A stretch of DNA of 64,000 bases. It comes from Calditrichales bacterium MX18-03. GTDB lineage: Bacteria > Bacillota > Clostridia > Lutisporales > Lutisporaceae. Below are positions 1,029 to 16,150 of this stretch, piece by piece (the first letter of the stretch is position 1; each line of letters opens with the position of its first letter). Under the pieces are notes generated by a model. That model had not been told where the DNA came from and ran no database searches. It worked only from the letters and a program-made list of their open reading frames with translations. Where the stretch lies: contig JAJGRE010000001.1 in the NCBI GenBank assembly GCA_021083345.1, positions 496,001-560,000 on the forward strand, given 5' to 3'. A program made the position numbers and the translations under genes.

Positions 1029-1105
1029 CTGGGTGTGGCGCAGCTTGGTAGCGCGCTTGAATGGGGTTCAAGAGGTCGCAGGTTCAATTCCTGTCACCCA
1101 GACCA
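1029..1105 (+). tRNA. tRNA-Pro (anticodon GGG)
   Basis: A full cloverleaf is readable. The acceptor stem is CTGGGTG/CACCCAG, the D-arm is GCGC...GCGC with GG in the loop, and the anticodon stem CTTGA/TCAAG encloses loop ATGGGGT with anticodon GGG. The T-arm contains GGTTCAATTCC. The discriminator A and the CCA end (1103-1105) are encoded. It begins with C, as tRNA-Pro does. Its 3' 48 nt recur as a fragment at 16049-16096. Confidence 0.95.
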
Positions 1106-1120
1106 TTATCGAAAGTTAAA

Positions 1121-1162
1121 AGCCAGTGATTCTTATGAATTGCTGGCTTGTTTGTTTTTTGC
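1121..1162 (+). terminator. intrinsic terminator of tRNA-Pro
   Basis: A 12-bp stem AGCCAGTGATTC / GAATTGCTGGCT with two G-U pairs is followed by a T-rich tract. Close relatives of this hairpin recur at 5874, 7979 and 16113. Confidence 0.85.
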
Positions 1163-1254
1163 TGTTATATGTAAAAACTATTAACGTAAGTGTGTTACTG
1201 AATTTTTAGAAGTTAATTGGGTAAACTAGCCCTGATAAATGAGAGGTGATTATA

Positions 1255-1463
1255 ATGACGGTTCAAAGTGATTTGCAAAAAACGATGGCTACCTGTGAAA
1301 CGATGAAGGGCAGTTATGCACTGATGGCGGAGTCAACCGAAGACCAGCAGGCAAAACAGATGTTTAACAGCATGAAAGCCGAATTGAGAAACATATTCTA
1401 TTTCTGAGTGATAGACTGGATTATATCAATCATAACAATCAATTAAACCAGAAAGATCAATAG
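1255..1463 (+). pseudogene. DUF1657 protein, frameshifted
   Basis: The first frame reads MTVQSDLQKTMATCETMKGS and stops after 50 codons at 1407. The next frame then gives ILFLSDRLDYINHNNQLNQK and ends at 1463, which matches the remainder of the small DUF1657 family (about 65-70 aa). Total length is 209 nt, so adding one base to the A run near 1387-1391 restores a 69-residue protein. The start follows GAGAGGTGAT. DUF1657 genes commonly travel with DUF421 and spoVA-type spore genes, and a DUF421 gene lies at 2997. This is either a fresh pseudogene or a sequencing/assembly error in a homopolymer. The short frame alone would be a truncated protein. Confidence 0.75.
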
Positions 1464-1487
1464 TTTGCTTGTTTGGAGAAGGCTTAT

Positions 1488-2615
1488 ATGAATAACTCAT
1501 TCGATGATGACAACGGGAAAGAAAAATATATAAGCTTCATTACAACACTATTCAAATGGGTACTGTGGGGAATTATTATCGGCTACTTATATAAGCATTT
1601 CGGCAAGGATTCTGACAAGGGAAACAACGTAGTTCTGGAGTATATCCACCACGGTCAGGGAGCTGTTCCTCTCCGAATGGGTCCCCTGGTCTTTTTGGCC
1701 TCCTTTATTACCCATCTGTTTGGCGGTTCAACTGGCAGGGAAGCTGCAGCCGTACAAATGGGAGGCAGCATAACAGAGATGCTAAACCGGCTGTTTAAAG
1801 TAAACAAAACCGATCAGAGAATTCTATTTATGAGCGGAATAAGCAGTGGGTTCGGCTCCGCCTTTAGTGCACCTTTAACGGGAACAGTTTTCGGAATGGA
1901 AGCCGTCGCTTTAGGACACATGAAGTACGAAGCACTGGTTCCCTGCTTTATATCCAGCTTTTCAGCCTATTTTACAACTAAGGCCTGGGGAGCTCCGGTC
2001 GACCGGCATATTATCCATGAGGTACCGGCTGTAGCAGCAGATACCCTCATAAAAATTATTATTGCCTCCATTCTCTTTAGTTTTACAAGTGTCCTGTATA
2101 GTAAGTTAAGACATAACATTGAAAGCCTCTCCAAGAAATATTTAAAGGATCCGATGCTGATCGGCATGGTAGGTGGATTTATTATTATAGCGTTAGTTCA
2201 TATGGTGGGTTCCCGGGATTATACGGGCCGCGGTTTAAAAATGGTAACGGATGCCTTCGAAGGATATGTCCCTGCTTACGCCTTTTTAGCTAAAATCGTG
2301 TTTACAGCCGTTACGATGGGAACAGGCTTTCGCGGCGGAGAAGCTATACCTCTCTTTTTTGTAGGCGCCACATTGGGAAATACATTATCAGGGCTAGCTG
2401 GTCTGCCAGCCTCCTTCCTCGCAGGCATTGGACTTATTGCTGTATTTTATGGTGCTGCCAACGCACCGATTTCCTGTTTTCTGCTTAGTATAGAAATGTT
2501 TGAAGGAAAAGGTGTTGTTTTTTTCTTTATCGCCTGTATAATCAGCTATATATTCTCAGGACATAATGGGATCTATACTTCTCAAAAAATATATGAGCCC
2601 AAAGCAGGATGCTGA
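1488..2615 (+). CDS. CLC-family chloride channel/transporter, N-terminally short
   Basis: Polytopic membrane protein with CLC landmarks: the selectivity-filter region GGSTGREAAAVQMGGS, the SAFSAPLTGTVFGMEA segment, the FRGGEAIPLFFVGATLGN loop and the PISCFLLSIEMFEG segment. CLC proteins pass chloride or exchange it for protons across the cytoplasmic membrane. At 375 residues it is shorter than the usual 400 or more. The first membrane helices appear reduced to FITTLFKWVLWGIIIGYLYK, so part of helix B and the following loop seems to be lost in frame. ATG 1488 follows GGAGAAGG at good spacing; an in-frame TTG at 1473 would overlap that site. It starts 24 bp after the DUF1657 remnant and may share its transcript. 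Confidence 0.8.
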   Translation: MNNSFDDDNGKEKYISFITTLFKWVLWGIIIGYLYKHFGKDSDKGNNVVLEYIHHGQGAVPLRMGPLVFLASFITHLFGGSTGREAAAVQMGGSITEMLNRLFKVNKTDQRILFMSGISSGFGSAFSAPLTGTVFGMEAVALGHMKYEALVPCFISSFSAYFTTKAWGAPVDRHIIHEVPAVAADTLIKIIIASILFSFTSVLYSKLRHNIESLSKKYLKDPMLIGMVGGFIIIALVHMVGSRDYTGRGLKMVTDAFEGYVPAYAFLAKIVFTAVTMGTGFRGGEAIPLFFVGATLGNTLSGLAGLPASFLAGIGLIAVFYGAANAPISCFLLSIEMFEGKGVVFFFIACIISYIFSGHNGIYTSQKIYEPKAGC

Positions 2616-2996
2616 ATATTCCAAGCGGAGAGAGAATTGATTTCTTCCAGCAAAAGAAAAAGTAATCCATGAATTGCAGAATGTTTATTATATACTAATC
2701 TTAATAAGTAAATCTTCGGTCCGGCTAACCGGGCTCTACTTGTATTCAGTTCTTATATTTACGAACACATAAGCCTCCGACTATTCACATATACCTTATG
2801 ATTTAACTTCTGCCCCAGGTGCTGCATAATGAAATCTTCTTCAATAAAAACTTCCCTGCTGCTTCATTGTTAGTCGTCCATGATCAAAACTAATAGAGGA
2901 AATATTTATAACAGCCGTCTAAATGCAGAGAATCGTGGGGATAATATCCATGTCAGCATATATAGGTAGCTGATGCTTATGCAGGAGGAAAGCAAC
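2616..2996. other. intergenic region between CLC and DUF421 genes
   Basis: No reading frame with a credible start was found. A short hairpin (CCGG-CTAA-CCGG, about 2720-2732) lies in it but lacks a T run. The ribosome binding site of the DUF421 gene (AGGAGG, 2983-2988) is at its right end. Confidence 0.5.
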
Positions 2997-3716
2997 ATGG
3001 CCCAAGAAATCATACAATCGGGTATTAAGACATTAATTGCCTATGTCCTACTTTTAGTATCAACACGAATAATGGGAAGAAAGATGGTAGCACAGGTAAC
3101 ATTTTTTTATTTTGTTGTTGCTATCATTGTTGGATCCGTCGTTGCAAATATAGCTGTAAACCAAGACATGCCTGTGGTTTCAGGTTTCACCGTACTGATA
3201 GCGCTCACCGTTATGACAATCGGTATACAATTCCTTCTTCCGAAGAGTTTCCTATTGAGAAAACTCGTTGACTTTGGGTCCATCATTGTAATTGAAAATG
3301 GTAGGATCATATCGGAGAACCTCAAGAAGTGCAGGCTGCGCCTGGATAATCTATTGATGCTGCTTAGGGAGAAGGATGCTTTTTCTATTGCCGATGTAGA
3401 ATACGCAGTGCTTGAGACAGACGGTAAACTGTCGGTTTTGAAAAAGTCACAGAAGCAGCCTGTAACTCCGTCGGACTTGAAAATTCCAACGTCATATATC
3501 GGACTTTCGAAGGATATTATCATGGATGGGAAAGTGCTTGCTGAAAACCTGAAAGGTGCAAACTTGAACAGAGAATGGCTGGAGCAGATGCTTCAAGCTC
3601 AGAATTACCAGCGTGTAGAGGACGTTTTTTATGCCGGTTTGGATACATCAGGCAATTTATACATCTCATCTAGAAACAGAGGCCAGGTAAAAAAGAGGCA
3701 GAGTGGGATTGAGTAG
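2997..3716 (+). CDS. DUF421 (YetF-like) membrane protein
   Basis: 239 residues. Three N-terminal membrane helices lie within about residues 5-85, including the family motif LVSTRIMGRKMVAQVTFFYF. Two soluble beta-alpha modules follow, each with the DUF421 signature (IIVIENGRIISENLKK and IIMDGKVLAENLKGANLNR). The biochemical role is unknown. The family is common in spore formers and is often linked to DUF1657 genes, as here. ATG 2997 is preceded by AGGAGG at 8-nt spacing, which favours it over an ATG eight codons upstream. Confidence in the family is high. Confidence 0.85.
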   Translation: MAQEIIQSGIKTLIAYVLLLVSTRIMGRKMVAQVTFFYFVVAIIVGSVVANIAVNQDMPVVSGFTVLIALTVMTIGIQFLLPKSFLLRKLVDFGSIIVIENGRIISENLKKCRLRLDNLLMLLREKDAFSIADVEYAVLETDGKLSVLKKSQKQPVTPSDLKIPTSYIGLSKDIIMDGKVLAENLKGANLNREWLEQMLQAQNYQRVEDVFYAGLDTSGNLYISSRNRGQVKKRQSGIE

Positions 3717-3749
3717 CTATAAGACAGCAAGGATCCCATGCTCCAAAAA

Positions 3750-3777
3750 TAAGAAAAAGACAGGCAAGCTACCTGTC
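3750..3777 (-). terminator. terminator of the minus-strand sensor kinase
   Basis: On the minus strand GACAGG-TAGCTTG-CCTGTC is followed by TTTTTC and further T runs, 60 bp beyond the kinase stop codon. Confidence 0.55.
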
Positions 3778-3836
3778 CCCATATCTTATATCCAAAATTT
3801 GCATTTAAAACTATATGTCCATATTACCTTCTTTTG

Positions 3837-5699
3837 TTACAAATAAATATCCGAAAATTCCACTCGTATCCTTTCTACATTTGCAACACTTACATAAAGT
3901 TGTGATTCTTCTTCACTCACACAAAGTACATTTGGCAGTTCAATTATAAACTCACTACCACTACCTATTTCACTTGTAAGGCTAATAGAGCCTCCATGCA
4001 GTTCGACTAACGACTGTACCAGAGATAAGCCAATCCCACTGCCCTCTGTTTTACGATGAAGTGAACCATCTACTTGTGTAAAGCAGTTGAATATCTTTTC
4101 GTGCATATCCTTTGGGATACCAATTCCAGTATCCTTTACCGAGATTGCAATTGTATCTAGCCTATCATAAATGTTTACGTAAATCTTTCCATTTGCATCT
4201 GTAAACTTTATTGCATTAGAAAGTAGATTAAGCATAATTCTTTCAATCATGTCAGGGTCAAATGCAATTGTCTTTTCTTCCATTTGAGTATCAAAAATCA
4301 AATCTATGTTCTTTTGTCTTGCATATTCAGCAACACTTAGAGATATATTTTCAACTATATGCACTATGTCGAGATTTTGAGGGGTGATTGATAATTGACT
4401 AACTTCTAACTTATTTACATCAATCAAGTTGCATATCAATCTTAACAACCTCAAGCTATTTTGCTTTAGCAACCCTAAATGTCTTCGCATTTTGCTGTCA
4501 TACATGTCTGTATCTCTATTGTCTAATCTCTCCATTAGTTGTGTAGATGCAAGTATAACATTAAGAGGTGTTTTTAGTTCATGGGAAATAGTTGCAAAAA
4601 AATGCGACTTTAGTCTGTTGTCTTCTTCTGTTTCATGAATCTTCGTATTAACTTTTTCTGTCATTAAATCAAAGGCTTGACTTGTTACATCTAATTCATC
4701 AAACCCCGCAATATTTGTTTTTACATCAAAGTTGCCTTTTGCAACTTCTTCAGTGGCCTCTTTAAATCTTACAAGAGCATTTATAAATCTGTTGCCAAAC
4801 AATATTGCTACGATAAGAGAACAAATTGTAATTAGCAGTAAAATAGCAATATCTCCGTACATATCCTGCCTGTAGTTGCCCAATAACTCACCTTCAGATG
4901 TTGTAACAAAGCAAGCCCAATTGATTTGTGGTATTGGTATAGTTACACCCATTCTAACGGTATTGTCAACCATTGACGGTACTCCCTTTATTCGCATAGT
5001 CTTGCCTTCTTTTATAGACACCCAAGCTTCTGCGTCAGAGCTAATTTTCCTTTTCTCATATTGAAGGTACAATGAACCTTTTCGAAAGACAATCATACCA
5101 TTTTTATCAATTAATCCATAGGAACTAGTTTCGCCTATTCTGTCTGTTGAAAAAATTGTATTCAATTTATTCACATCTATGGTGCTGACCAAAATACCTA
5201 TGGGCTTGTTATCAACTAAAATTTTACGAGCAACAGGTAATAAAGCTTCATGATTTAAATAGCCCTGAACTAAATTTGATATCGTCTTTTCTTCTCCATT
5301 AATAAGTCTGGTATAGTATTCCCTTTGCTTGATAGATTTACCTACCATTATCTTCTCTACGCTTGCCAAAACAGTACCGTCAAGGCTTACCCATGAAATG
5401 TTTATTAACTCTTTATTTAATTTAATTACTTCATCAAAATAATCCTCTATATCTTCCTGATCCCAACCATCATTCTTGCCAATTGCCAATCCGATAGTAT
5501 ATTGTTCAGACCAAGTTTTTTCAACATAATTCATAAACGACTCACTAAATGCCTGAGCAAAATCTTCACTTGCCTTATATTCAGCTTCCAAACTTTTTTT
5601 AAAATCTGTTTTTATTCTGACTGCATTAAGTATTACTACCGGGATAAGGACCAAAAGCATGAGTAAGATTAGTTTTGTTCTTATGCTTATTTTTTTCAT
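3837..5699 (-). CDS. membrane sensor histidine kinase (Cache-HAMP-HisKA-HATPase)
   Basis: 620 residues. A membrane helix lies at about 8-28, an extracellular Cache-type sensor at about 35-280, a second helix at about 285-305 and a HAMP region to about 355. The HisKA domain carries the phospho-acceptor motif FFATISHELKTPLN, and the ATPase domain shows an N-box (NLLSNAIKFT), G1 (DTGIGIP), F-box (IFNCFTQVD) and G2 (EGSGIGLSL). It autophosphorylates on His in response to an extracellular ligand. No response regulator is adjacent, so it is an orphan. The gene is visibly more AT-rich than its neighbours, which hints at separate ancestry. The start follows a G-rich site (GGGGGG). Confidence 0.9.
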   Translation of the reverse strand: MKKISIRTKLILLMLLVLIPVVILNAVRIKTDFKKSLEAEYKASEDFAQAFSESFMNYVEKTWSEQYTIGLAIGKNDGWDQEDIEDYFDEVIKLNKELINISWVSLDGTVLASVEKIMVGKSIKQREYYTRLINGEEKTISNLVQGYLNHEALLPVARKILVDNKPIGILVSTIDVNKLNTIFSTDRIGETSSYGLIDKNGMIVFRKGSLYLQYEKRKISSDAEAWVSIKEGKTMRIKGVPSMVDNTVRMGVTIPIPQINWACFVTTSEGELLGNYRQDMYGDIAILLLITICSLIVAILFGNRFINALVRFKEATEEVAKGNFDVKTNIAGFDELDVTSQAFDLMTEKVNTKIHETEEDNRLKSHFFATISHELKTPLNVILASTQLMERLDNRDTDMYDSKMRRHLGLLKQNSLRLLRLICNLIDVNKLEVSQLSITPQNLDIVHIVENISLSVAEYARQKNIDLIFDTQMEEKTIAFDPDMIERIMLNLLSNAIKFTDANGKIYVNIYDRLDTIAISVKDTGIGIPKDMHEKIFNCFTQVDGSLHRKTEGSGIGLSLVQSLVELHGGSISLTSEIGSGSEFIIELPNVLCVSEEESQLYVSVANVERIRVEFSDIYL

Positions 5700-6138
5700 A
5701 TGAAGTTTTACCCCCCAAGTTGTGGTGTCTATTAATGATATATCATTATGTTAATATGCACTATTCCATATTAATGTAATTTCCATAATTAAGCAATATA
5801 TCAAAATAGTCAACATCTAAAGCAGTTATCCAGCAACCGACATAAGATTTCATTCAGTAAAAAGTAGGTTAAAAGCCAGTGATCCGAAAAGATTGCTGGC
5901 TTGTTTGTTTTTGGGGAATTATACAGACTTGTTTTTAACTTATTCCCGCGCATTATAAAGATGAAAGCCGAATTAGGTAAACAGCCTGGCAGATATTCAT
6001 TTAGCCGCTTTTGTATAAGAGAACTTTTAGAAAGACAGTCAGAATTTGCCTAAATAACAAAGGAATTGTGTGAAGCATGTCGAAAATATAATAAATATAG
6101 ATTTATGCCAAGTAAAAATAGCATACGGGGGTGTGGTT
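5700..6138. other. intergenic region with orphan terminator and possible DUF1657 scrap
   Basis: It holds divergent upstream regions for the kinase and cheX. An orphan terminator-like hairpin sits at 5874-5913. At 5962 a short frame (MKAELGKQPGRYSF...) shares 14 identical bases with the middle of the DUF1657 gene at 1372-1385. The order terminator-then-DUF1657-like echoes 1121-1463, but the protein-level match is too short to call a gene. Confidence 0.4.
5874..5913 (+). terminator. orphan copy of the tRNA-Pro type terminator
   Basis: AGCCAGTGATC / GATTGCTGGCT followed by TTGTTTGTTTTT. The preceding GTTAAA and the loop-flanking bases match the terminator at 1121. No plus-strand gene precedes it. 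Confidence 0.6.
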
Positions 6139-6687
6139 ATGACCGGAAACACAGCGTTTGTTTTTGAATCAGATTCAGGTGCCAGAACCTTTATGGAGGT
6201 AATAGTGGAGAGAACGAAGGCTTTCCTGGCAGAAGAAGGTGCTATAGCAGAGCTTTCAGACGCTATTGGTTTTCTCGAATCCCAAAGCCTGGTGCTTAAA
6301 AGCATGACTGCGATCCTGACTGTTGAGGACGGCGCAAAAATGGTACTGGCTTTCAGCTTTGACAGGGAACTCATTGACAGGCTGTTTGAGCAGTACTCTC
6401 TGGGAATTGAGATTCCTGAGGATGAAAAAGAGATGTATGTAGAAGAAACAGCTGGGGATATGATCAACATCGTTGTAGGGAATGTATTGGCGAGATTCCA
6501 GCAGCCTGGAATCGCTTTTAAAATATCCACTCCACTTATCATAAATGAAGCAAAAAGTATTTCCAAATACAAGAATACACGGTTTTACAGCGCACAAATA
6601 AACACGGAGGCAGGCTCTATGATGGTGTATTGCGTCACGCCTGGGGAACTGTATAATAAGCATTTTAAACGGGAGAAGGTGTTATAA
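6139..6687 (+). CDS. CheX/CheC-family chemotaxis protein
   Basis: 182 residues with the CheX-like fold pattern. CheX/CheC proteins bind CheY-P and dephosphorylate it. The usual E-x-x-N active-site helix appears here as D107-M-I-N110 within EETAGDMINIVVGNVL, so the acidic residue is Asp rather than Glu. Activity is likely but not certain. ATG 6139 lies just after a GGGGGTG site; an in-frame GTG 23 codons upstream has no clear site. The gene is followed after one base by cheY and then a diguanylate cyclase, which fits a role in shutting off that CheY. Confidence 0.75.
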   Translation: MTGNTAFVFESDSGARTFMEVIVERTKAFLAEEGAIAELSDAIGFLESQSLVLKSMTAILTVEDGAKMVLAFSFDRELIDRLFEQYSLGIEIPEDEKEMYVEETAGDMINIVVGNVLARFQQPGIAFKISTPLIINEAKSISKYKNTRFYSAQINTEAGSMMVYCVTPGELYNKHFKREKVL

Positions 6688-6688
6688 A

Positions 6689-7075
6689 ATGAAAGCTTTA
6701 AGGGTTTTAATCGTAGATGACTCAAAAATAACAGTAAAAAGGCTGTCCGATATGGTGAAAAACGCAGGACATAATGTTGTCTCCACTGCAACCTCGGGAA
6801 TGCTCGCTCTTACCGAATATGAAAAATGCAAACCGGATATTGTGACTATGGATATTACAATGCCCGATATGGATGGTTTGGAGACAACCAAAAAACTGAT
6901 AGAATATGACCCGAATACGTTAGTCGTGATGATGACATCCCACAGCCAGGAACAGATGGTGCTTGACGCGATCGAGGCAGGTGCAAAGGGATACCTTCTG
7001 AAGCCCTTTGATGCTGGCAGGCTGAAGGTAGTGCTGGAAGAAACTTATGAAAAATACGGTGAGAAAAATGCTTGA
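6689..7075 (+). CDS. cheY: CheY-like single-domain response regulator
   Basis: 128-residue stand-alone receiver with D10 and D11 (metal binding), the phosphorylated D55 (TMDITMP), T83/S84 and the conserved K105 (LLKPF). It has no output domain and so acts by protein contact, as CheY does on the flagellar switch or on enzymes. It is sandwiched between cheX and a diguanylate cyclase and overlaps the latter by 8 bp, so the three are probably co-translated. The partner kinase may be the CheA encoded on the opposite strand at 10549-13611; that link is inferred from proximity. Confidence 0.9.
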   Translation: MKALRVLIVDDSKITVKRLSDMVKNAGHNVVSTATSGMLALTEYEKCKPDIVTMDITMPDMDGLETTKKLIEYDPNTLVVMMTSHSQEQMVLDAIEAGAKGYLLKPFDAGRLKVVLEETYEKYGEKNA

Positions 7076-7967
7076 GAATAATTTGTTCAAAGCACTGTTC
7101 GACGTGATACCTTTCGGGATTTACGTCGTTGATGTAGAAAACTTTGATATCGTTTATATGAATAAATTAATGATTGAAAAAAGAGGCGACTATACAGGCA
7201 GGAAATGCTACGAAAGCATCTATGGAGAAGAGAAACCATGCTATTTCTGCAAAACGCCCCTGCTTCTCAGCCCGGACAGCAGGCCGAATGAAAGCACCAT
7301 TGTGTTTGAAATCTATAATGCAGTGGACGACAACTGGTATCAGCTGCAGGAAAAGTGCCTGACATGGCCTGATGGCCGGCTTGTCAAGTATTCTATTGCT
7401 GTCGGGATCAATGAATTGAAAGCAACCCAAAACAGGCTAGCAGAAGCACATGCGATACTGGCCTTAAAAAACAAGGAGTTGGAAAAGCTGTCAACCACCG
7501 ACCGGCTGACTAATCTCAACAATCGGTTGAAGCTCGAAGAAATACTCAGTCAGGAGCTGGAAAAGACCGGTCAAAACGGCAAGGATATGGCGGTCCTGCT
7601 TCTGGACATTGACCATTTTAAAAAAGTCAACGACACTTACGGCCATCAGGTAGGAGATTCCGTACTAAGTGAATTCGCCAGACTGATACTTGACAGCATC
7701 AGAAAGGTTGACTATGCTTCCAGGTGGGGAGGCGAAGAATTCCTTGTCGTATGTCCTGAAACCGACATCAAGAGCAGTATGTCTTTTGCCGAAGATCTGA
7801 GGGGAATTATCCAGCATCATCCTTTTACCACTGTGAATCAAATAACCTGCAGCATAGGTTTGACTATTTCCAGAGATGGGGACGATGAAAACTCAATTAT
7901 AGGCAGAGCGGATAAAGCGCTGTACAAAGCTAAACAAAACGGCCGCAACCGTGTGGAAATTGAATGA
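7068..7967 (+). CDS. PAS-GGDEF diguanylate cyclase
   Basis: 299 residues. An N-terminal PAS domain (about 5-125) carries a cysteine group C47, C58, C61 (CYESIYGEEKPCYFC), followed by a short coiled linker and a GGDEF domain (about 140-299). The active-site motif is GGEEF (221-225). An RxxD inhibitory site (RKVD, 212-215) lies five residues before it, so product feedback by c-di-GMP is expected. The enzyme makes c-di-GMP from two GTP in the cytoplasm. ATG 7068 is preceded by GGTGAG and overlaps the cheY stop; ATG 7047 is a longer alternative without a site. The PAS cysteines could hold a redox centre, which is inference. Confidence 0.88.
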   Translation: MLENNLFKALFDVIPFGIYVVDVENFDIVYMNKLMIEKRGDYTGRKCYESIYGEEKPCYFCKTPLLLSPDSRPNESTIVFEIYNAVDDNWYQLQEKCLTWPDGRLVKYSIAVGINELKATQNRLAEAHAILALKNKELEKLSTTDRLTNLNNRLKLEEILSQELEKTGQNGKDMAVLLLDIDHFKKVNDTYGHQVGDSVLSEFARLILDSIRKVDYASRWGGEEFLVVCPETDIKSSMSFAEDLRGIIQHHPFTTVNQITCSIGLTISRDGDDENSIIGRADKALYKAKQNGRNRVEIE

Positions 7968-7978
7968 GCCCGATATTA

Positions 7979-8017
7979 AAGCCAGTAATCGCAAGAATTG
8001 CTGGCTTGGTTGTTTTT
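7979..8017 (+). terminator. terminator of the cheX-cheY-cyclase operon
   Basis: AGCCAGTAATC / GAATTGCTGGCT hairpin, then TTGGTTGTTTTT, 12 bp after the cyclase stop. It belongs to the same sequence family as the tRNA-Pro terminator. Confidence 0.8.
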
Positions 8018-8032
8018 GGGTTCCGCTCCTTG

Positions 8033-8155
8033 TTAGCAAGCTCTTCCGCTGGAAGCCTCCGGTACGGTATCATTCAACTCCTGCAGGGCATTCTTTATGA
8101 CTTTGCGTATAGTCGAGGAATCGTCTTCTGATAAAATCTTAGATTTGAGACCCAT
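8033..8155 (-). pseudogene. truncated cheY-like receiver fragment
   Basis: Starts four bases after the cheR stop and reads MGLKSKILSEDDSSTIRKVI then KNALQELNDTVPEASSGRAC before a stop at 40 codons. This is the beginning of a CheY receiver (IL..DDSSTIRKVIKNALQEL), including the acidic pair. The sequence goes off-consensus after about residue 30 and the phospho-Asp and Lys regions are absent. It is read as a decayed or 3'-deleted cheY that once closed the che operon. Confidence 0.65.
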
Positions 8156-8159
8156 ATGC

Positions 8160-9008
8160 TCACTCTTTTTTTCTATAAAAGATGCCGTTTTGATACTGCT
8201 CCATAGAAAAATCCTTGCCGTAATCCTCAAACAGCTCCGAGCTCCCGATAAACAATATCCCTCCGGGTTTCAAAGCCCTTGCCATTCCTTCCATCACTTG
8301 CTTTTTGAACCGTCCCGAGAAGTAAATCAAGACATTCCTGCAGAATATAATATCATACTGCTTGTAAGGGTAATCCCTCCCTATAAGATTGAACTGCCCG
8401 AAATTGACTCTCCTTTTTATCTCCTCGTTGAGCCTCCAGGTTCTGCCGACTTTACTGAAATACAGAAACTTGTATTGATCCTCTAAACCCCGGGAAATGG
8501 ATATCCCGTCATATTCCCCTGCGGCTGCCTTTAAAAGGGCCTGCTTTGATATATCGGTAGCCAGTATTTCAATTTTATTCTCCGGAACATCCGTAATACC
8601 GTTTACTCTCAAAAACCTGTTGACGCACATTGCTATTGAATAAGGCTCCTGCCCATTGGAGCAGGCAGCACTCCATATCTTTAAGCCGTCTTTAAAGCTA
8701 TTTCTGTATTGCCTGATAAAATCCGGCAGGAGTATGTCCTCGATTATCTGCCAGGGGGTTTTATCCCTGAACCAGAAGGTTTCATTTATGGCAACCGCTT
8801 CAATAATCTCTTCAATGATTTCCGGGTTTTCTTCCAAGCATGCTTTCAGGTACAGCTCCTCCAGACTCGACAATCCGTATTGGGGGAGCAGCGTGGAAAG
8901 TTTATTCTCCAAAAGATATGATTTTTCTTTGCTTAAGGCAATGCCGCATTTATCTTCAATAAGTTGTTGTATCATAGCAAATCCCGTAGCGCTGCTGTAA
9001 TATTTCAT
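8160..9008 (-). CDS. cheR: chemotaxis protein methyltransferase CheR
   Basis: 282-residue S-adenosylmethionine-dependent methyltransferase that methylates receptor glutamates. It has an N-terminal helical domain (about 1-85) with the INETFWFRDKTPW motif, and a Rossmann methyltransferase domain with KIWSAACSNGQEPYSIAM, the ATDIS motif and IIFCRNVLIYF. ATG 9008 sits at good distance from GGCGGTG; GTG 9017 and ATG 9014 overlap the cheB stop. Translation is likely coupled to cheB. It is part of the hydrogenase-like receptor operon and its expected substrate is that receptor. Confidence 0.93.
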   Translation of the reverse strand: MKYYSSATGFAMIQQLIEDKCGIALSKEKSYLLENKLSTLLPQYGLSSLEELYLKACLEENPEIIEEIIEAVAINETFWFRDKTPWQIIEDILLPDFIRQYRNSFKDGLKIWSAACSNGQEPYSIAMCVNRFLRVNGITDVPENKIEILATDISKQALLKAAAGEYDGISISRGLEDQYKFLYFSKVGRTWRLNEEIKRRVNFGQFNLIGRDYPYKQYDIIFCRNVLIYFSGRFKKQVMEGMARALKPGGILFIGSSELFEDYGKDFSMEQYQNGIFYRKKE

Positions 9009-9013
9009 ATGCA

Positions 9014-10084
9014 TCACCGCCTGCCCTTTGAAATCTGGTATATTCTAAAGCCGATATCCTTCAGGTCAACGGCTTCGTCCGACAGCCCTGCGTCATAAAC
9101 ACACTTCGGCATGCCGTATACGACGCATGTACTTTCGCTCTGGGTAATGCAGTAACAGTTACACTGCTGCTTCAGCTCCAGCACTCCCTGCATACCGTCG
9201 TTTCCCATGCCTGTGAGTATTACCGCCAATACGTTCTTCCCCCTGTATACATCGGCAGCGGAATGAAAAAGAACATCGGCAGACGGACGGACGCCGTTTA
9301 CCGAAGGTGTATCCAGCAAGCGTATTTTCTTGCCATGGTCATCTTCCGCCTCAACAATCATATGCCTGTCTCCCGGAGCTATAATTACATAGCCTGGCTG
9401 TACCTTGTCCCCATTCTTGCCCTCTCGGACCTCATAGACAAGCTTTTTGTTCAATTTTTCCGCAAGTGCTTTGGTAAAGCCTGACGGCATGTGCTGAACA
9501 ACCAGCACGGGTATCTTAAAGTCTGCCGGAATCTGTTGAAAAAGCGTGTCCAAAGCCACCGGCCCGCCTGTAGAGGAAGTGACCAGTACCAGGTCAACAC
9601 CCTCATGCACTATTCTGTCCAGTATCTCTCCACTGTCTGTTATGGGACTTTGAGCCACTGCAGGCTTACTGACACCTCCTACGGCTGCAGGAGCAGCAGT
9701 AAAGCCTTTCACTTTGATCTGTGCAAAAATCATCTGCAGCTGATTTTTTATAACAGCCATGTTCTTTATTAGGTTATCCTCACTCGGTTTCACAATGTAA
9801 TCGGTAATACTGTCGCCTCCGGAACTCTCATTGCCGATGATGACGACTTCAAGCCCCGGATGCTCCCCCAATAAGCGCTTCAGAACACCCGCGCCCCTCC
9901 TGGTAAGCAAGTCGGCATCAATCAAAACTACTTCTATTGATTTTTGTGACAGCCAGCCGAACATTATATCGGTATCCGATACAGCTTGCTCCACGACGCC
10001 AAAGTCTGTGCCGTTTACAGCTTCTGTGAAGAACTTTCTGTAGGTGCTGGTATTTTCTACGATCAGTGTTCTGAGCTTTTCCAA
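9014..10084 (-). CDS. cheB: CheB methylesterase with altered receiver domain
   Basis: 356 residues: receiver (about 1-120), linker, and CheB methylesterase domain (about 160-352). The esterase triad is visible as the Ser in VTSSTGGPVALD, the His in VVQHMPSGFT and the Asp in LTGMGNDGMQG. It removes receptor methyl esters or deamidates glutamines. The receiver keeps the phospho-acceptor position D56 (LIDAD) and a Lys in YIVKPS. However, the usual acidic pair is E10-N11, so metal binding and phosphorylation may be weak. It starts with TTG after AAGGGGTGAT. Confidence 0.9.
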   Translation of the reverse strand: MEKLRTLIVENTSTYRKFFTEAVNGTDFGVVEQAVSDTDIMFGWLSQKSIEVVLIDADLLTRRGAGVLKRLLGEHPGLEVVIIGNESSGGDSITDYIVKPSEDNLIKNMAVIKNQLQMIFAQIKVKGFTAAPAAVGGVSKPAVAQSPITDSGEILDRIVHEGVDLVLVTSSTGGPVALDTLFQQIPADFKIPVLVVQHMPSGFTKALAEKLNKKLVYEVREGKNGDKVQPGYVIIAPGDRHMIVEAEDDHGKKIRLLDTPSVNGVRPSADVLFHSAADVYRGKNVLAVILTGMGNDGMQGVLELKQQCNCYCITQSESTCVVYGMPKCVYDAGLSDEAVDLKDIGFRIYQISKGRR

Positions 10085-10108
10085 AATATCACCCCTTGCC
10101 TGCTGTAC

Positions 10109-10552
10109 TCAATTATCAATACTTCCGTGCTCGCTGAACATTTTTTCGGTATTGAGGACAATCAACAGTTCCTCCTTCAGTTTCACAATATTATTGATGA
10201 ATTCACCTTCCACCGGACCGACATTAGCCGGAGGCACCTCGAACTCATCACTTTCGACCTCAATAACATCTCCCGGCCGGTCTATAAGAAATCCCACCTG
10301 GTTGGGGTCCTTGGGGATTTTCATTATGATACAGGCAGTACCCGGCTGCCTGCGGTCTCCCTCCAAACCCAAAACCACCCTCAGGTCAAAAAGAGTGACT
10401 ACCTGTCCTCTCATGTTGAAAAAACCGGTAACATAAGGCTTCGCACCTGGAACAGGAGTCCAGTCCACTCTCCGGTTAATTTCCTTAACCAGCGTTACAT
10501 TGATTCCGAAGTAACAATCACCAATAAAAAAGGTCAGGAGTTTTTCCTTCAT
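10109..10552 (-). CDS. cheW: CheW coupling protein
   Basis: 147-residue single CheW domain (LLTFFIGDCYFGINVTLVKE ... VTGFFNMRGQVVTLFDLRVV). It bridges receptors and CheA in the signalling array. Its ATG overlaps the cheA stop (ATGA) and is preceded by AGGAGGAGG, so it is translationally coupled to cheA. The che operon also supplies two CheW-like domains inside CheA. Confidence 0.92.
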   Translation of the reverse strand: MKEKLLTFFIGDCYFGINVTLVKEINRRVDWTPVPGAKPYVTGFFNMRGQVVTLFDLRVVLGLEGDRRQPGTACIIMKIPKDPNQVGFLIDRPGDVIEVESDEFEVPPANVGPVEGEFINNIVKLKEELLIVLNTEKMFSEHGSIDN

Positions 10553-13500
10553 ACGTTCCTCCTCCTATCCCTTATAACCCTGTCTACAACCTCCAGCAGC
10601 CGCGACCTGTCCAGCTTGTACTCATAGGCATCAAAGCCCGCTTCAAGGCCTTCATTCTTCTGCTTCTCCCCGGTGAGAGACGTAACGGCAATCACAGGAA
10701 GGCTGCAGAGTCTGCTGTCGGAACGGATCCGCTTGACAAGCTCCAGTCCGTTCATCACAGGCATGTTTATGTCGCTGACTACCACATCGATCTGCCGATC
10801 CTTCAGAAGCTCCAGCGCCTCTTTCCCCTCCCGGGCTACTATGACCCGGTACCCGGCATTTTCAAAGTAATCCTTCTCCATCCGCTGGAAGAAAGGAGTA
10901 TCCTCTGCCAGAAGGATCGTTATCTTCTCCGTCAATTTAGCGTCGGTTTCGATTTTGTAATGCTCCGGACTGGCCATTTCAAAAAGCTCATATATATTTA
11001 TGAGCAGCACGATACTGCCGCAAATAATGCTGGACCCCACAAGCCCCTTTGCCTTTATCCCATCATCCTCGGCTATGTCTATGTGAGCCTGCACCGTATC
11101 CTTGATCTCCTCAATCAGGATACCTATAGGATGCTTGACCAGCTTTGGTATGATGACAAAATACTTGTCCCTTTCCCTCTTCTCCCTGTTTAAGGGCAGG
11201 AAACTTTCAGGACGTATCACTCTTAAAACCTGTCCCCGGAATTGTATGAATTCCTTGTCTCCGATCCGCTCGATCTCATCCGGCCTTATTTCCTCAACCC
11301 TTGAAATCATACTCATGTCAAGCGCCAGTGTTTCAGGGCCGGAGCACTTGAACAGGAGCACGCTCTGATACTCGTACATGTTCAGCTTTTCCTGCTCGCG
11401 CTCAATGGCTCTCTTTTCATCCTGTCCTTCGGAATAATGCAGGTTGGCTTTCTCGATGATCCCGCTGGGGTCCAGAATCAAGGCCGTCTTGCCGTCTCCG
11501 AGTATCGTTACCCCGGAGTAGCACTTGCAATCCTTCACATATGCAGGTAACGTCTTTACAAGTATTTCTTCGCTTTCATGAATTGTATCCACTGCAAGCC
11601 CTAGACGCCTTGAGCCAATTTTGATTACCAGTATTCTGATTATGTAGCCGAAGCCGTATTCCCTGCGCTCTTCCTCCAAATCTTTAGCCTGATCGCTTTC
11701 GAGCGCCTCAGCGGGTCCGGAACGCCTGATATCAAACAGATTTTTTCTTTTCTCATGCTTCCGCACTCCCATAACCCGATCCATATAGGTCCTCTCCAGT
11801 CCCAGAACGTCAGCCAGGTGGATTATGGGCAAAAGCCTGCCTCTCAGCCGCAGGACCTCCGAATTATTGATGTATTCGATTTTCCTCGAAGGATCATTTG
11901 CCTTGATCCTGACTATTTCCTGTATATTTATCTGGGGAAGGGCAAACTTCTGCTTCTCCACCTCTACGATAAGTGAAGGAATAATGGCAAGGGTGAGCGG
12001 CAGCAGCAGCCTTATGGTAGTGCCCGCTTTCTGTACCGTGAATATTTCTATCTTTCCCCCAAGCTTTTCTATGTTTGTTTTTACCACGTCCATACCAACA
12101 CCTCGGCCTGAGATATCGGTAATCTTTTCGGATGTTGAAAAGCCAGGCCTGAAAATCAGCTGGAGCACTTCCTGGTCGGTCATTAATGTCAGGTCCGCTT
12201 TACCGATCAGTGCATTTTCCAAGGCTTTGACCTTGATCCTTTCAAGGTCGATACCCTTTCCATCGTCTATAACGTCTATATATACATAGCCGCTCTCATG
12301 GTATGCCTTCAGGCTCAATGTCCCTGTTCTCGGCTTGCCCAGAGCGATCCGCTCCTCCGGCAGCTCCATTCCATGGTCTATTGAATTTCGCACCAGATGT
12401 GTCAACGGATCATATAAAGCTTCAATAATGGATTTATCCAATTCAACCTCGGACCCTCCAAGCACCAACTGTATATCCTTGCCCATCTTTTTGGCAAGCT
12501 CCCGTATTATTCTGGGGAATTTGCTGAAAACATTGGATACGGGCTGCATACGGGTCTGCATTACCTTCTCCTGCAGGTTAGTCGTGATATGATCGACATT
12601 CTGGAGTATTGCCTCAATACCTGGAATAGCTTTTCTATGAGGTTGCATTGTCCGCAGCAGCTGATTCCTGGCCAGCACCATTTCACTGGCTACATTCAGT
12701 AGACTGTTGAGCAGCGTGATGTTGACCCTGATGCTGTCCTCCACCGAAACATTCTGCCATTTGCTTTGCTGGGAAGACCTTTCCGCTTCATCCGGTGCAG
12801 ACTGGCTATACCCTGCAGCTGCCGGCTCTACGTTTCTTTCTGCTTCACCATGCTGTGTTTCTGCAGCTTTCCCTACAATGCGCAGTTCACTAATAGCTTC
12901 CTTAGGCTCTGTCAGCAGAGGCGGAAGTATATCCATTTCCAGGACTGTCGTAAACAGGACCTCGATGTGGATATCCTCCTCCAATCTGTCCAAATCAACA
13001 CTGCAGTCAATGACGCTTCCGAAGGATTCTAATTCCTTTAGCAGTGCCAGCAGGCTCTCCCCCTTGCCGATAAAATCGCCGTAAAGCCTTCTTTTCAGCA
13101 GGTACAGCCTGCAGCCCCTCTCAATTTCACTTGCAATCCTGGACCGCCTTGCTTCCTCCCATTCCAGACTGCTGCAGCTAAAGCTACCGGAAGATTGCTC
13201 CGATGCCTTCGGCAACTCATTCTTTTCGGAGGACGTCCCTTGTAGAACACGGGATAGCCTGCCCATGAGAGCTGATATATCGACGCTCTCACTGTTGGCC
13301 ACGTCGTTGACCATTGCCCTGAGACAGTCATTGGAAGAAAGCAGTATGTCGATTAATTCCTCGTTTATCTCAAGCTTCCCGGAGCGCGCCTCGCCAAATA
13401 CATTCTCCAATGCGTGGGAGAGAACCACAATATTTTTAAAGTCGAAGAAGCTGGATGTGCCTTTGATGCTGTGGACGGCACGAAAAATATTGTTGATGCT

Positions 13501-13611
13501 TTCAGCATTGGTGCCTGCGGTATCCATTTGCACGATCTCGGACTCAACCGTATCCAGATGGCCTATTGCTTCTTCTATAAAGCCTTGAATGAACTCTTCA
13601 TCCTGCATCAT
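10549..13611 (-). CDS. cheA: CheA-type histidine kinase with tandem CheW domains and C-terminal receiver
   Basis: 1020 residues. The Hpt domain (about 1-115) has phospho-acceptor H47 in RAVHSIKGTSSFF. A linker region follows, then a dimerisation domain (about 295-365) and the ATPase core with the N-box LVRNSIDHGMELPEER, G1 DDGKGID and G2 GRGVGMDVVKTNIEKLGG. A CheW-like region (about 545-730) contains an insert of charged residues. A second CheW-like domain (about 745-885) precedes a C-terminal receiver (895-1020) with D947 and K999. Standard CheA proteins are about 650-700 residues; the receiver makes this a hybrid kinase like FrzE or ChpA. It sits between the receptor gene and cheW. Confidence 0.92.
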   Translation of the reverse strand: MMQDEEFIQGFIEEAIGHLDTVESEIVQMDTAGTNAESINNIFRAVHSIKGTSSFFDFKNIVVLSHALENVFGEARSGKLEINEELIDILLSSNDCLRAMVNDVANSESVDISALMGRLSRVLQGTSSEKNELPKASEQSSGSFSCSSLEWEEARRSRIASEIERGCRLYLLKRRLYGDFIGKGESLLALLKELESFGSVIDCSVDLDRLEEDIHIEVLFTTVLEMDILPPLLTEPKEAISELRIVGKAAETQHGEAERNVEPAAAGYSQSAPDEAERSSQQSKWQNVSVEDSIRVNITLLNSLLNVASEMVLARNQLLRTMQPHRKAIPGIEAILQNVDHITTNLQEKVMQTRMQPVSNVFSKFPRIIRELAKKMGKDIQLVLGGSEVELDKSIIEALYDPLTHLVRNSIDHGMELPEERIALGKPRTGTLSLKAYHESGYVYIDVIDDGKGIDLERIKVKALENALIGKADLTLMTDQEVLQLIFRPGFSTSEKITDISGRGVGMDVVKTNIEKLGGKIEIFTVQKAGTTIRLLLPLTLAIIPSLIVEVEKQKFALPQINIQEIVRIKANDPSRKIEYINNSEVLRLRGRLLPIIHLADVLGLERTYMDRVMGVRKHEKRKNLFDIRRSGPAEALESDQAKDLEEERREYGFGYIIRILVIKIGSRRLGLAVDTIHESEEILVKTLPAYVKDCKCYSGVTILGDGKTALILDPSGIIEKANLHYSEGQDEKRAIEREQEKLNMYEYQSVLLFKCSGPETLALDMSMISRVEEIRPDEIERIGDKEFIQFRGQVLRVIRPESFLPLNREKRERDKYFVIIPKLVKHPIGILIEEIKDTVQAHIDIAEDDGIKAKGLVGSSIICGSIVLLINIYELFEMASPEHYKIETDAKLTEKITILLAEDTPFFQRMEKDYFENAGYRVIVAREGKEALELLKDRQIDVVVSDINMPVMNGLELVKRIRSDSRLCSLPVIAVTSLTGEKQKNEGLEAGFDAYEYKLDRSRLLEVVDRVIRDRRRNV

Positions 13612-13654
13612 ACCCTCACCTTGCTTCCATTGTTTTTACTGTTCCCGATATCCG

Positions 13655-15838
13655 TCAAATGACAGAAAGCTCCGCAGCTGTCTCAGCCAGTTTTTTAACT
13701 CCGACGTTGGCTTCGGCAACGCTCTTAGCTGCGGTTTGCGAGTTGATTGCTATATCGCTGGTTTTTTCGGTAATCAGGTTGACCTTCTGGGCTGCTGCAA
13801 CGATGGCATTGGAAATATTCCCCGAAACTGCCGATTGCTCCAGCACTGCTGCGGCAATGGTATTGGTTATGCTCGTCATCTCGTCGATAACCTGCATGAT
13901 GGTTCCCATTGCACTTACTGCATCCGACATATTCTTCTGCATAACCTCAATTTGGGTGCCTATCTCTTCAGTGGACTCAGCCGTCTGCTTTGCCAGCTCC
14001 TTTACTTCTCCCGCCACCACGGCAAAGCCCTTTCCCGCTTCGCCAGCGCCGGCTGCTTCAATAGCTGCATTCAGCGCCAGCATATTTGTCTGGTCTGCAA
14101 TATCGTTGATAACTTTTACAACCTTCCCTATCTGTTTTGAAGACAGGTTGAGGGTTTCAATGATCCTGTTGGTATCCTTGGCCTTTACTTCAGCGTCCGC
14201 GGTGATGTTTTTCGAGCGGCCGCAGTTCTGGCTTATTTCATTGAGCGAGATATTGATTTCCTTCATTGCCAGTACTACACTGTTTACCGAGGCAGAAACA
14301 TCCCTGGCAAAATCCGAGGCATTATTGGTATGCTCGGCGATCCCGTCCATCAGCTCATTTATTTTTTCTATTCCCGCGGAGGTTTGTTCGGATATCTTGG
14401 TAAGCTTTGAAATTATCTTGTTGACCTCCTGGACGCTGTTTTGCCTTTCGTCACTCAACACCCTGACCTCGTCCAGCATTTTGTTGATTTCATCGTTCTT
14501 GGATATGAGCTCACTGTTTTTCAGTTCAAGGACATTCCTTTCCAAGCTGATTTCGCGGCGGTTGTAGTCCATGCAGTTGTTGATACTGTTGATCCCGTTA
14601 TATACTGCCATTACCATATCCCTGCACGAATGATATCCGCAGGCGGAACAGTTCAGCTCCCTCTCCTTCTTATCATGCTTATGCATTTTGCCGAATATCT
14701 CTTCGTACTGCTGGTCAGTAGGCTCCTTCAAGCCTTCCACCTTTATGCTTCTGTTATAGCGCCTTACAAAATCATCCAGCTTGAGCGTTTTATCGAAATA
14801 CTTGTACAACCAGTCAATTTTCCTGGTCATAACCTTGTTGCCTTTATCAGCCAGCTTCTGTACCTTCATCGCGTTGAATTTATGGTCAACATCGTCGACT
14901 GTGATTTTCTTTGTTGTTCCCGTACCTAAGTTACAGCCTGCGGAACAGTTCAATATATCTACCAGCATGGGAACCGGCTTTTTATTCCTCAATCTTTCCC
15001 CATATTCATCCAGGTACCCGTAAGCATGCTCGTGACCTTCAATCTGCCTTACCCAAGCGCTCTTTATCTTAGCCTCCACGTTTTCCCTCAGCCCTCCGGG
15101 TCTGCTGTAAAGGAAGCCAAGGCTGCAGCCGATATCCTGAAAGTCCTGGCTCTTAAAGCTGCTCAGATTTATTTTGTGCTTGTCCAGATATTCTTCAAGC
15201 TTCTTGTATGTCACATTGTATTGAACATAGCCACTGGTATTGGGGTCCCTGATTTCGTTCACTTTGGCTATGCATGGGGACAGGAAGGCAATATCATTGT
15301 AAACATTCGCATACTTTTTGAGATAGATTGCCGTGCAGAGCATCGGGCTGTGAATGGGAGCCAGGTTGTCCAACAGCTCAGGCTTATATCTTTCTATGTA
15401 TCCCACTATGGCAGGACACGGCTGAGCTATGACCGACGACATATGCATGTCTTTAATGGCCTTTAAATATGCCCAGGTGGTAATATCGGCGCCGAAGGAG
15501 ACATCATATATGATTTCAACCCCCTTTGATTTAAGAAAGCCGAATAAGCCTCTGAAATCTTCAAAGTTGGTTCTAACCGATGGCGCTGCTATGACAGCAA
15601 GCTTCTTGCCTTTTTCCAGGTCATGAAAAAAAAGCTCAGTGTCATCCGAGAAATCCCGTGCTTCATGGTCACAGACCTCGATGCACTTGCCGCAAAGCAC
15701 ACATTTGTCGGGATTTACCCTGACCTTGCTTTCTCCGTCGACATTATAGGAGACGTTTGCATCCAAAGCCAGACAGTTCCTGATGCACTTGTTGCATCCT
15801 ACGCATTTCTCTTCCTTGACATGAATTACATTATCCAT
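13655..15838 (-). CDS. cytoplasmic chemoreceptor with ferredoxin and [FeFe]-hydrogenase-like sensor domains
   Basis: 727 residues. Two 4Fe-4S ferredoxin motifs come first (C12, C15, C18, C22 and C46, C49, C52, C56). An iron-only hydrogenase H-domain follows (about 78-350) with L1 AQPC141P, L2 SPC189IAK192 and L3 NC298SAGC302. Next are another cysteine cluster (C397, C400, C405, C422), a coiled coil (about 430-500) and a methyl-accepting signalling domain whose tip reads [20 protein letters not shown]. No membrane segment is seen. The four H-cluster cysteine ligands are kept. The catalytic proton-shuttle cysteine (CpI C299 position) is P140 and the pocket methionines are replaced, as in sensory rather than catalytic hydrogenases. 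ATG 15838 follows AAAGGAGG. It heads the che operon and probably reports hydrogen or redox state to CheA. Confidence 0.88.
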
Positions 15839-15858
15839 TATGCAACCTCCTTTATGAT

Positions 15859-15892
15859 TTCTTAAAGTGAGTGATCTCAAACTTCTTAAAGT
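15859..15892 (-). repeat. direct repeat in the leader of the hydrogenase-like receptor
   Basis: TTCTTAAAGT occurs at 15859-15868 and again at 15883-15892, 24 bp apart, 20-55 bp upstream of the start codon. It may be a regulator site or a small duplication. Confidence 0.4.
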
Positions 15893-16048
15893 TAGCAAGC
15901 CAGTTTACCAGCATTTTGTTTTAATGCTATTTATTTCATTCTATACAAGTCTTCCGATTTATTCAAGCAATTCAGACAGTTTTCCCTATCCTTCAACTTA
16001 AATCGACCATTGTTAATATTTGGTATATAGTTTGCAAACCTAAATTAA

Positions 16049-16096
16049 TGAATAGGGTTCAAAAGGTCGCAGGTTCAATTCCTCTTACCCAGACCA
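16049..16096 (+). pseudogene. 3'-half tRNA-Pro fragment
   Basis: 48 nt aligned without gaps to 1058-1105 of the tRNA-Pro gene with 44 identities, from the 3' side of the anticodon stem-loop through the encoded CCA. No D-arm or 5' acceptor strand precedes it, so it cannot fold as a tRNA. Similarity continues into the following terminator. Confidence 0.85.
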
Positions 16097-16112
16097 TCTA
16101 AAGAATGTTAAA

Positions 16113-16150
16113 AGCCAGTGATTCCAATGGATCGCTGGCTTGATTGTTAC
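16113..16150 (+). terminator. orphan terminator following the tRNA fragment
   Basis: AGCCAGTGAT / ATCGCTGGCT hairpin followed by TTGATTGTTA. It sits at the same position relative to the tRNA fragment as 1121-1162 does to the intact tRNA, and the preceding GTTAAA is shared. The T tract is degraded. Confidence 0.6.

Follow-up and report, generated by a model that had tools for sequence, protein, structure and literature searches.

[FeFe]-hydrogenases linked to a methyl-accepting chemotaxis protein (MCP) have been named before: HydDB lists them as group C2, "chemotactic (putative)" (PMC5037454), and this group, for which H2 sensing is proposed, is discussed also in PMC9431212. TmHydS and TamHydS (group D), both called putative sensors in the cited work, have two N-terminal [4Fe-4S] clusters, an H-domain and a C-terminal [4Fe-4S] cluster; although neither has the proton-relay cysteine (Cys299) of the catalytic group A enzymes, H-cluster binding and turnover persist in both (PMC10055695, PMC11803613). 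TmHydS ends in a PAS domain, whereas no output is fused to TamHydS; the cited work on the two proteins gave no kinase readout. We analysed 64,000 nucleotides from Calditrichales bacterium MX18-03 (contig JAJGRE010000001.1, positions 496,001 to 560,000; this whole stretch is the window), in which a compact set of five minus-strand genes (8160-15838) specifies a receptor with an H-domain, CheA, CheW, CheB and CheR. The operon is real, complete and unusual, and we consider it probable that it specifies a dedicated cytoplasmic, putatively H2- or redox-sensing chemosensory pathway built by domain swap.

The coordinates and gene order given in an initial annotation of this DNA, made from the letters alone, proved exact. 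All five reading frames are open, and a single operon is likely because the genes overlap or are separated by short gaps (receptor-cheA, 43 nt; cheA-cheW, 4-nt overlap; cheW-cheB, 24 nt; cheB-cheR, 4-nt overlap). A scan for sigma-70 promoters gave matches no better than those in shuffled sequences. The receptor starts with an ATG at 15838 and has 727 amino acids. A Pfam search recovered every domain that had been predicted for it, i.e., Fer4 sites (residues 11-60), PF02906 (78-305; E value, 1e-28), PF04060 (395-422) and MCPsignal (542-713; E value, 1e-35). The cysteine cluster that had been listed as extra corresponds to PF04060, a cluster that sensory [FeFe]-hydrogenases typically have. The receptor indeed lacks a membrane segment, as had been claimed: its best 19-residue Kyte-Doolittle mean was 1.12, compared to 2.2 to 2.9 in homologous membrane MCPs. 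With a sensory-type H-domain and an MCP on one polypeptide, it fits the description of group C2; the receptor type is not new, because such proteins already have a name, and novelty of the fusion itself was rejected in view of group C2 and more than 80 relatives. The new element is the junction of a hydrogenase sensor with the receptor of a rare Che pathway. The initial annotation had missed both group C2 and this rare, recurring Che class, whose receptors are mostly membrane bound.

The structural model of the receptor had a predicted local distance difference test (pLDDT) score mostly above 90 over residues 1 to 430. In this model, residues 2 to 365 have a complete [FeFe]-hydrogenase fold, with VIA-align Z scores of 38.8 to CbA5H and 34 to 36 to CpI (8zqd_A: Z score, 38.8; root mean square deviation, 2.9; 347 residues aligned); that the MCP half is absent from the structure matches means little, since the hydrogenase half fills the match list. 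None of the H-cluster ligands C141, C189, C298 and C302 in motifs L1, L2 and L3 is missing, and none of them varies in an alignment of 40 relatives; every cysteine of the N-terminal ferredoxin-like part is invariant among relatives as well. In the alignment with solved group A enzymes, TSCCP is replaced by AQPCP, MPC by SPC and MACxxGC by LNCxxGC, which puts Pro140 at the position of Cys299, Ser187 at that of Met353 and Leu296 at that of Met497. The features of catalytic group A enzymes at these positions are thus absent; the loss of Cys299 and the changes from Met to Ser and Leu match the expectation for slow "sensory" hydrogenases. At the same three positions, TamHydS has Ala137, Ser191 and Leu291 (PMC11803613); the corresponding residues of TmHydS are Ala, Gly and Ser (PMC10055695). 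The receptor therefore shares its Ser and Leu with TamHydS but differs from both proteins in having proline in place of Cys299 and an MCP as output. The genome encodes the maturase HydG and nine further PF02906 proteins.

The other half of the receptor belongs to a class of Bacillota Che cassettes that is rare. In CheA, Pfam found Hpt, H-kinase_dim, HATPase, three CheW-like stretches and, at the C terminus, a receiver; the receiver had been recognized before, and the number of CheW-like stretches is three, not one. The Hpt histidine region, the ATP-binding boxes and the receiver residues align with those of relatives, and the active-site motifs are present. A search with the C-terminal half of this CheA found only 5 clear relatives among 398 genomes of the phylum, 8 among 391 of the class and a further 2 in the class of genome G309. 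Fifteen homologous cassettes (L150-L154, L181-L188, L190-L191) have the plan CheA(3xCheW-receiver)-CheW-(MCP)-CheB-CheR; in many of them, CheY and between one and three CheX proteins are encoded as well. The window CheA is related to those of L150 and L190 over its full length (1,037 to 1,148 bits), including the three CheW stretches and the receiver, and the likeness extends to CheW, CheB, CheR and the hairpin and tip of the MCP. The same MCP class is present in 11 of the 15 cassettes (L150, L151, L153, L154, L184-L188, L190, L191); in L152, L181, L182 and L183, no MCP was seen in the stretch examined, some of these being on short contigs. Where the sensors of cassette-class receptors could be identified, they were 4HB_MCP or dCache, with HAMP, and none of the sampled receptors had an H-domain; a second example of the chimera was not found among the 15 cassettes. 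The window departs from the class: its MCP gene is ahead of cheA, not between cheW and cheB as is usual, and an H-domain sensor without transmembrane segment stands where a membrane sensor with HAMP is usual, although not universal. We found no name for this CheA class in the open literature, and a search on 58H chemoreceptors with CheA gave none. The operon is not a feature of the order, since none of 21 further genomes from that order has this CheA.

The MCP hairpin of the receptor falls into the clade of the cassette MCPs (support, 100/97) and is 77% identical to a receptor of L150; the other MCPs in the tree, among them 19 encoded by this genome and 28 fusions of a hydrogenase with an MCP, were outside this clade. 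Its similarity to cassette-class hairpins amounts to 167 to 269 bits, versus 76 bits at most for other MCPs. In the sensor tree, the same protein nests among short-MCP and kinase fusions, near the paralogue L039 of its own genome (57% identity) and L055 (60%). The two halves thus have separate ancestries. The local identity is with the hydrogenase family up to residues 460 to 480 and with the cassette MCPs beyond them, and the model confidence dips at residues 461 to 487. The simplest reading of these sequence data is a sensor swap near residues 460 to 480, with the far end of the hairpin trimmed to 126 residues. Derivation of the whole receptor from the short-MCP type of the same genome (L039) was rejected because the hairpin falls into another clade. 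The chimera was seen in a single genome.

A relative of the sensor module was present in 156 of 398 sampled genomes of the phylum. MCP fusions were common in the 80 closest named loci and 30 others: the module behaves as a plug-in, mostly on a short MCP tail (about 205 to 220 residues after the Fe-S cluster), with histidine kinase, kinase-receiver, GGDEF and further domains as the remaining outputs. No sensor relative among the 80 closest loci directly adjoins a complete cheA-W-B-R operon; in L059 and L071, Che genes are several kilobases away. The window receptor differs from these group C2-like relatives in its long MCP, which is of another clade, and in its place at the head of the operon.

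The initial annotation had spoken of a whole private Che pathway for taxis or gene control. Privacy is backed by the tip: cassette-class receptors have EAAGAG, where the canonical MCP tip carries arginine (EAARAG), and the class tip occurs once in a genome with about 37 MCPs and three CheA genes, the sole copy being in the window receptor. The flagellar che cluster is separate (C7:313 kb), with FlhA/FlhF and its own CheA and CheB, and no flagellar genes were seen beside the operon. That the window CheA serves the flagellum was therefore rejected. Convergent to cheR, across a terminator, are genes for CheX, CheY and a PAS-GGDEF cyclase, and this set is probably the likeliest output because CheX, CheY and receiver-output genes recur beside homologous cassettes (REC-SpoIIE in L154 and L181, REC-HD in L181, REC-GGDEF in L185). 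Taxis is less likely than gene control or a cyclic di-GMP (c-di-GMP) output, since a separate CheA and CheB belong to the flagellar cluster and the homologous cassettes adjoin CheY/CheX, REC-GGDEF, REC-SpoIIE and REC-HD genes. A complete, apparently non-flagellar Che pathway adjoining a diguanylate cyclase resembles the Wsp-type or alternative cellular function (ACF) pathways (PMC3447774). However, the window GGDEF protein has PAS instead of a receiver, and no TPR is fused to CheR. As to a multidomain response regulator in the cluster, a feature of ACF systems, the window has CheY and a separate PAS-GGDEF protein next to the operon, and REC-GGDEF, REC-SpoIIE or REC-HD genes adjoin the relatives L154, L181 and L185.

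The proposed sequence of events starts with a putatively sensory [FeFe]-hydrogenase module, normally on short MCPs, histidine kinases and diguanylate cyclases, that would have replaced the transmembrane sensor of a cassette-class receptor. H2, or a redox state set by H2, would alter the H-cluster and the nearby Fe-S clusters; the C-terminal Fe-S domain and the coiled-coil linker would shift and, with them, the MCP hairpin, which would control autophosphorylation of CheA. Phosphate might then pass to the receiver of CheA itself, which would serve as a sink or as a second output, and also to CheY, with the one in the neighbouring CheX-CheY-PAS-GGDEF set as the probable recipient, to act on gene control or c-di-GMP and not on flagellar steering, and CheR and CheB would reset the receptor by methylation. 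H2 did not reduce the C-terminal cluster of TamHydS, though it changed the secondary structure (PMC13104023); we therefore favour a relay to the hairpin by conformation over one by redox state. The full chain, i.e., H2 gating of CheA through a swapped-in H-cluster receptor, on a pathway that arrived with a tRNA-Pro-bounded segment and acts through CheY/CheX and the diguanylate cyclase on c-di-GMP, is put forward tentatively, as less likely than not. To our knowledge, no adapting (methylation-reset) hydrogen-sensing pathway has been known, and this would be the first if true. Because a single operon encodes a soluble sensor with its kinase, its coupler and the two enzymes of adaptation, the locus is of value as a test system for hydrogen sensing, in which H2-dependent kinase control becomes measurable in vitro. 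Nature provides the controls, since the same hairpin type also occurs behind membrane sensors and the same sensor type also precedes short MCPs, kinases and cyclases. The swap also illustrates a route by which an H-cluster module is wired to a new output.

Several findings speak against an adapting, H2-sensing pathway. Pro140 differs from the alanine of the characterised sensors, and catalysis by the receptor may be nil. The C-terminal arm of the hairpin has 126 residues past the tip, compared to 195 to 203 in relatives, and so falls short of the roughly 202-residue arm of the class (29 heptads, 58H-like by count); no strict methylation consensus was found in the hairpin. All genes for sensing, kinase control and adaptation are there, as had been stated, CheW and CheR included, but CheB combines a strong methylesterase domain with a weak receiver that has lost its acidic pair (VEN replacing VDD), and phospho-control of CheB looks weakened. 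The CheX-like protein has Asp for the usual Glu of the motif and matches the CheX proteins of relatives weakly (20 to 24 bits); since this similarity is weak, we infer the output arm from the neighbourhood. One could suspect a recent, poorly working or decaying fusion of little physiological role, the more so as the altered CheB receiver and CheX motif and the trimmed arm go along with occurrence in a single genome on a tRNA-bounded segment. The five open frames, the conserved kinase, Hpt and receiver motifs of CheA, a hairpin still 77% identical to its kin and the intact cysteine ligands of the sensor make decay very improbable.

A more serious rival, which we nevertheless regard as rather unlikely, is that the receptor senses redox state or oxygen in a general way through its Fe-S clusters and uses cubanes only, with the [2Fe] subsite absent or irrelevant and H2 not a ligand. 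The proline at the proton-relay position would fit such a protein, as would the sequence LGTGT where a GGGQP-type motif stands and the many Fe-S clusters per chain. However, a plain cubane sensor has no obvious need for the bridging C302 and all [4Fe-4S]H ligands, which are invariant across the 40 diverse relatives; HydG is present in the genome, and TmHydS and TamHydS bind and turn over the H-cluster without the cysteine (PMC10055695, PMC11803613). H2 taxis, in which the pathway would steer swimming through the flagellar motor by CheY cross-talk, draws on the flagellins and flagellar che cluster of the genome and on the HydDB label of group C2 (PMC5037454). It is improbable given that the flagellar CheA and CheB are a separate set, that no other MCP of the genome has the tip signature and that REC-GGDEF, REC-SpoIIE and REC-HD outputs accompany the homologous cassettes.

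The whole signalling set is enclosed in a segment of about 15 kb (1029-16148) whose ends are, from their sequence, attachment-site-like, because a tRNA-Pro(GGG) gene is at the left and a copy of its 3' half at the right (Table 1). The terminator palindrome AAGCCAG...CTGGCTT has four copies in the genome, all in the window (1120, 5873, 7979 and 16112); the spans that hold them are 1029-1156 (with the tRNA), 5873-5902, 7979-8007 and 16049-16148 (with the tRNA copy). Copy 1120 follows the tRNA gene, and copy 16112 is preceded by the 3' half of that tRNA. Horizontal arrival of the segment is likely, since the segment is tRNA bounded and this CheA is absent from the order-mates. No integrase was seen in the segment, and its GC content is mixed. 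Between palindrome copies and adjoining the CheX-CheY-GGDEF set is a dCache histidine kinase gene of low GC content (3837-5699; 0.34).

Table 1. Features of the operon and its surroundings (window positions)
Feature	Position	Strand	Basis
Receptor: 2x[4Fe-4S], [FeFe]-hydrogenase H-domain, PF04060 FeS, linker, MCP hairpin; soluble	13655..15838	-	Pfam, fold, hydropathy
N-terminal ferredoxin-like part, residues 11-60, two CxxCxxCxxxC-type [4Fe-4S] sites	15659..15808	-	Pfam, alignment
H-domain PF02906, residues 78-305; motifs IAQPCP, SPCIAK, LNCSAGC; ligands C141, C189, C298, C302	14924..15607	-	
PF04060 FeS cluster, residues 395-422	14573..14656	-	Pfam
Coiled-coil linker with the inferred point of fusion, residues 430-480	14399..14551	-	Similarity switch, model confidence dip
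MCP signalling hairpin, residues 481-727	13658..14398	-	Comparison with cassette-class receptors
Class-specific MCP tip	14024..14059	-	Alignment; genome search
CheA, 1020 aa: Hpt, dimerisation, HATPase, three CheW stretches, receiver	10549..13611	-	Pfam, alignment
CheW	10109..10552	-	Pfam
CheB, methylesterase strong, receiver without acidic pair	9014..10084	-	Pfam
CheR	8160..9017	-	Pfam
CheX-like phosphatase, probable output arm	6070..6687	+	
CheY-like single receiver, probable output arm	6689..7075	+	
PAS-GGDEF diguanylate cyclase, GGEEF motif, probable output arm	7047..7967	+	
Terminator (inverted repeat) that separates the convergent gene sets	7979..8007	+	
tRNA-Pro(GGG), left end of tRNA-bounded segment	1029..1105	+	
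Repeat of 1058-1156 (tRNA-Pro 3' half and terminator), right end of segment	16049..16148	+	87% over 100 bp

The survey of sensor relatives turned up further arrangements. In two Spirochaetales loci (L063:10001-12394 and L070:6307-8625), the same hydrogenase sensor is on a long MCP of a different clade. These MCPs group with the receptor of the second Che cluster of the genome (L135), which suggests an independent sensor swap. In L027:1-2832, L029:1489-4323 and L030:1-2811, the sensor module is followed in frame by a CheA-like region with Hpt and kinase parts, possibly a direct sensor-CheA fusion. A Gastranaerophilales record (L059:1911-3152 and 3162-3860) has sensor and short MCP in two adjoining frames, either a split gene or a sequencing error. 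The module also heads sigma54-activator-like proteins (PAS-AAA+) in L033, L042-L044 and L007 and, in the genome of the window, at C8:621891-622589. The paralogous hydrogenase-short MCP receptor of this genome (L008/L039:7952-9865) adjoins a ferritin-like gene and is near an ApbE gene and an electron transfer flavoprotein (ETF) alpha gene.

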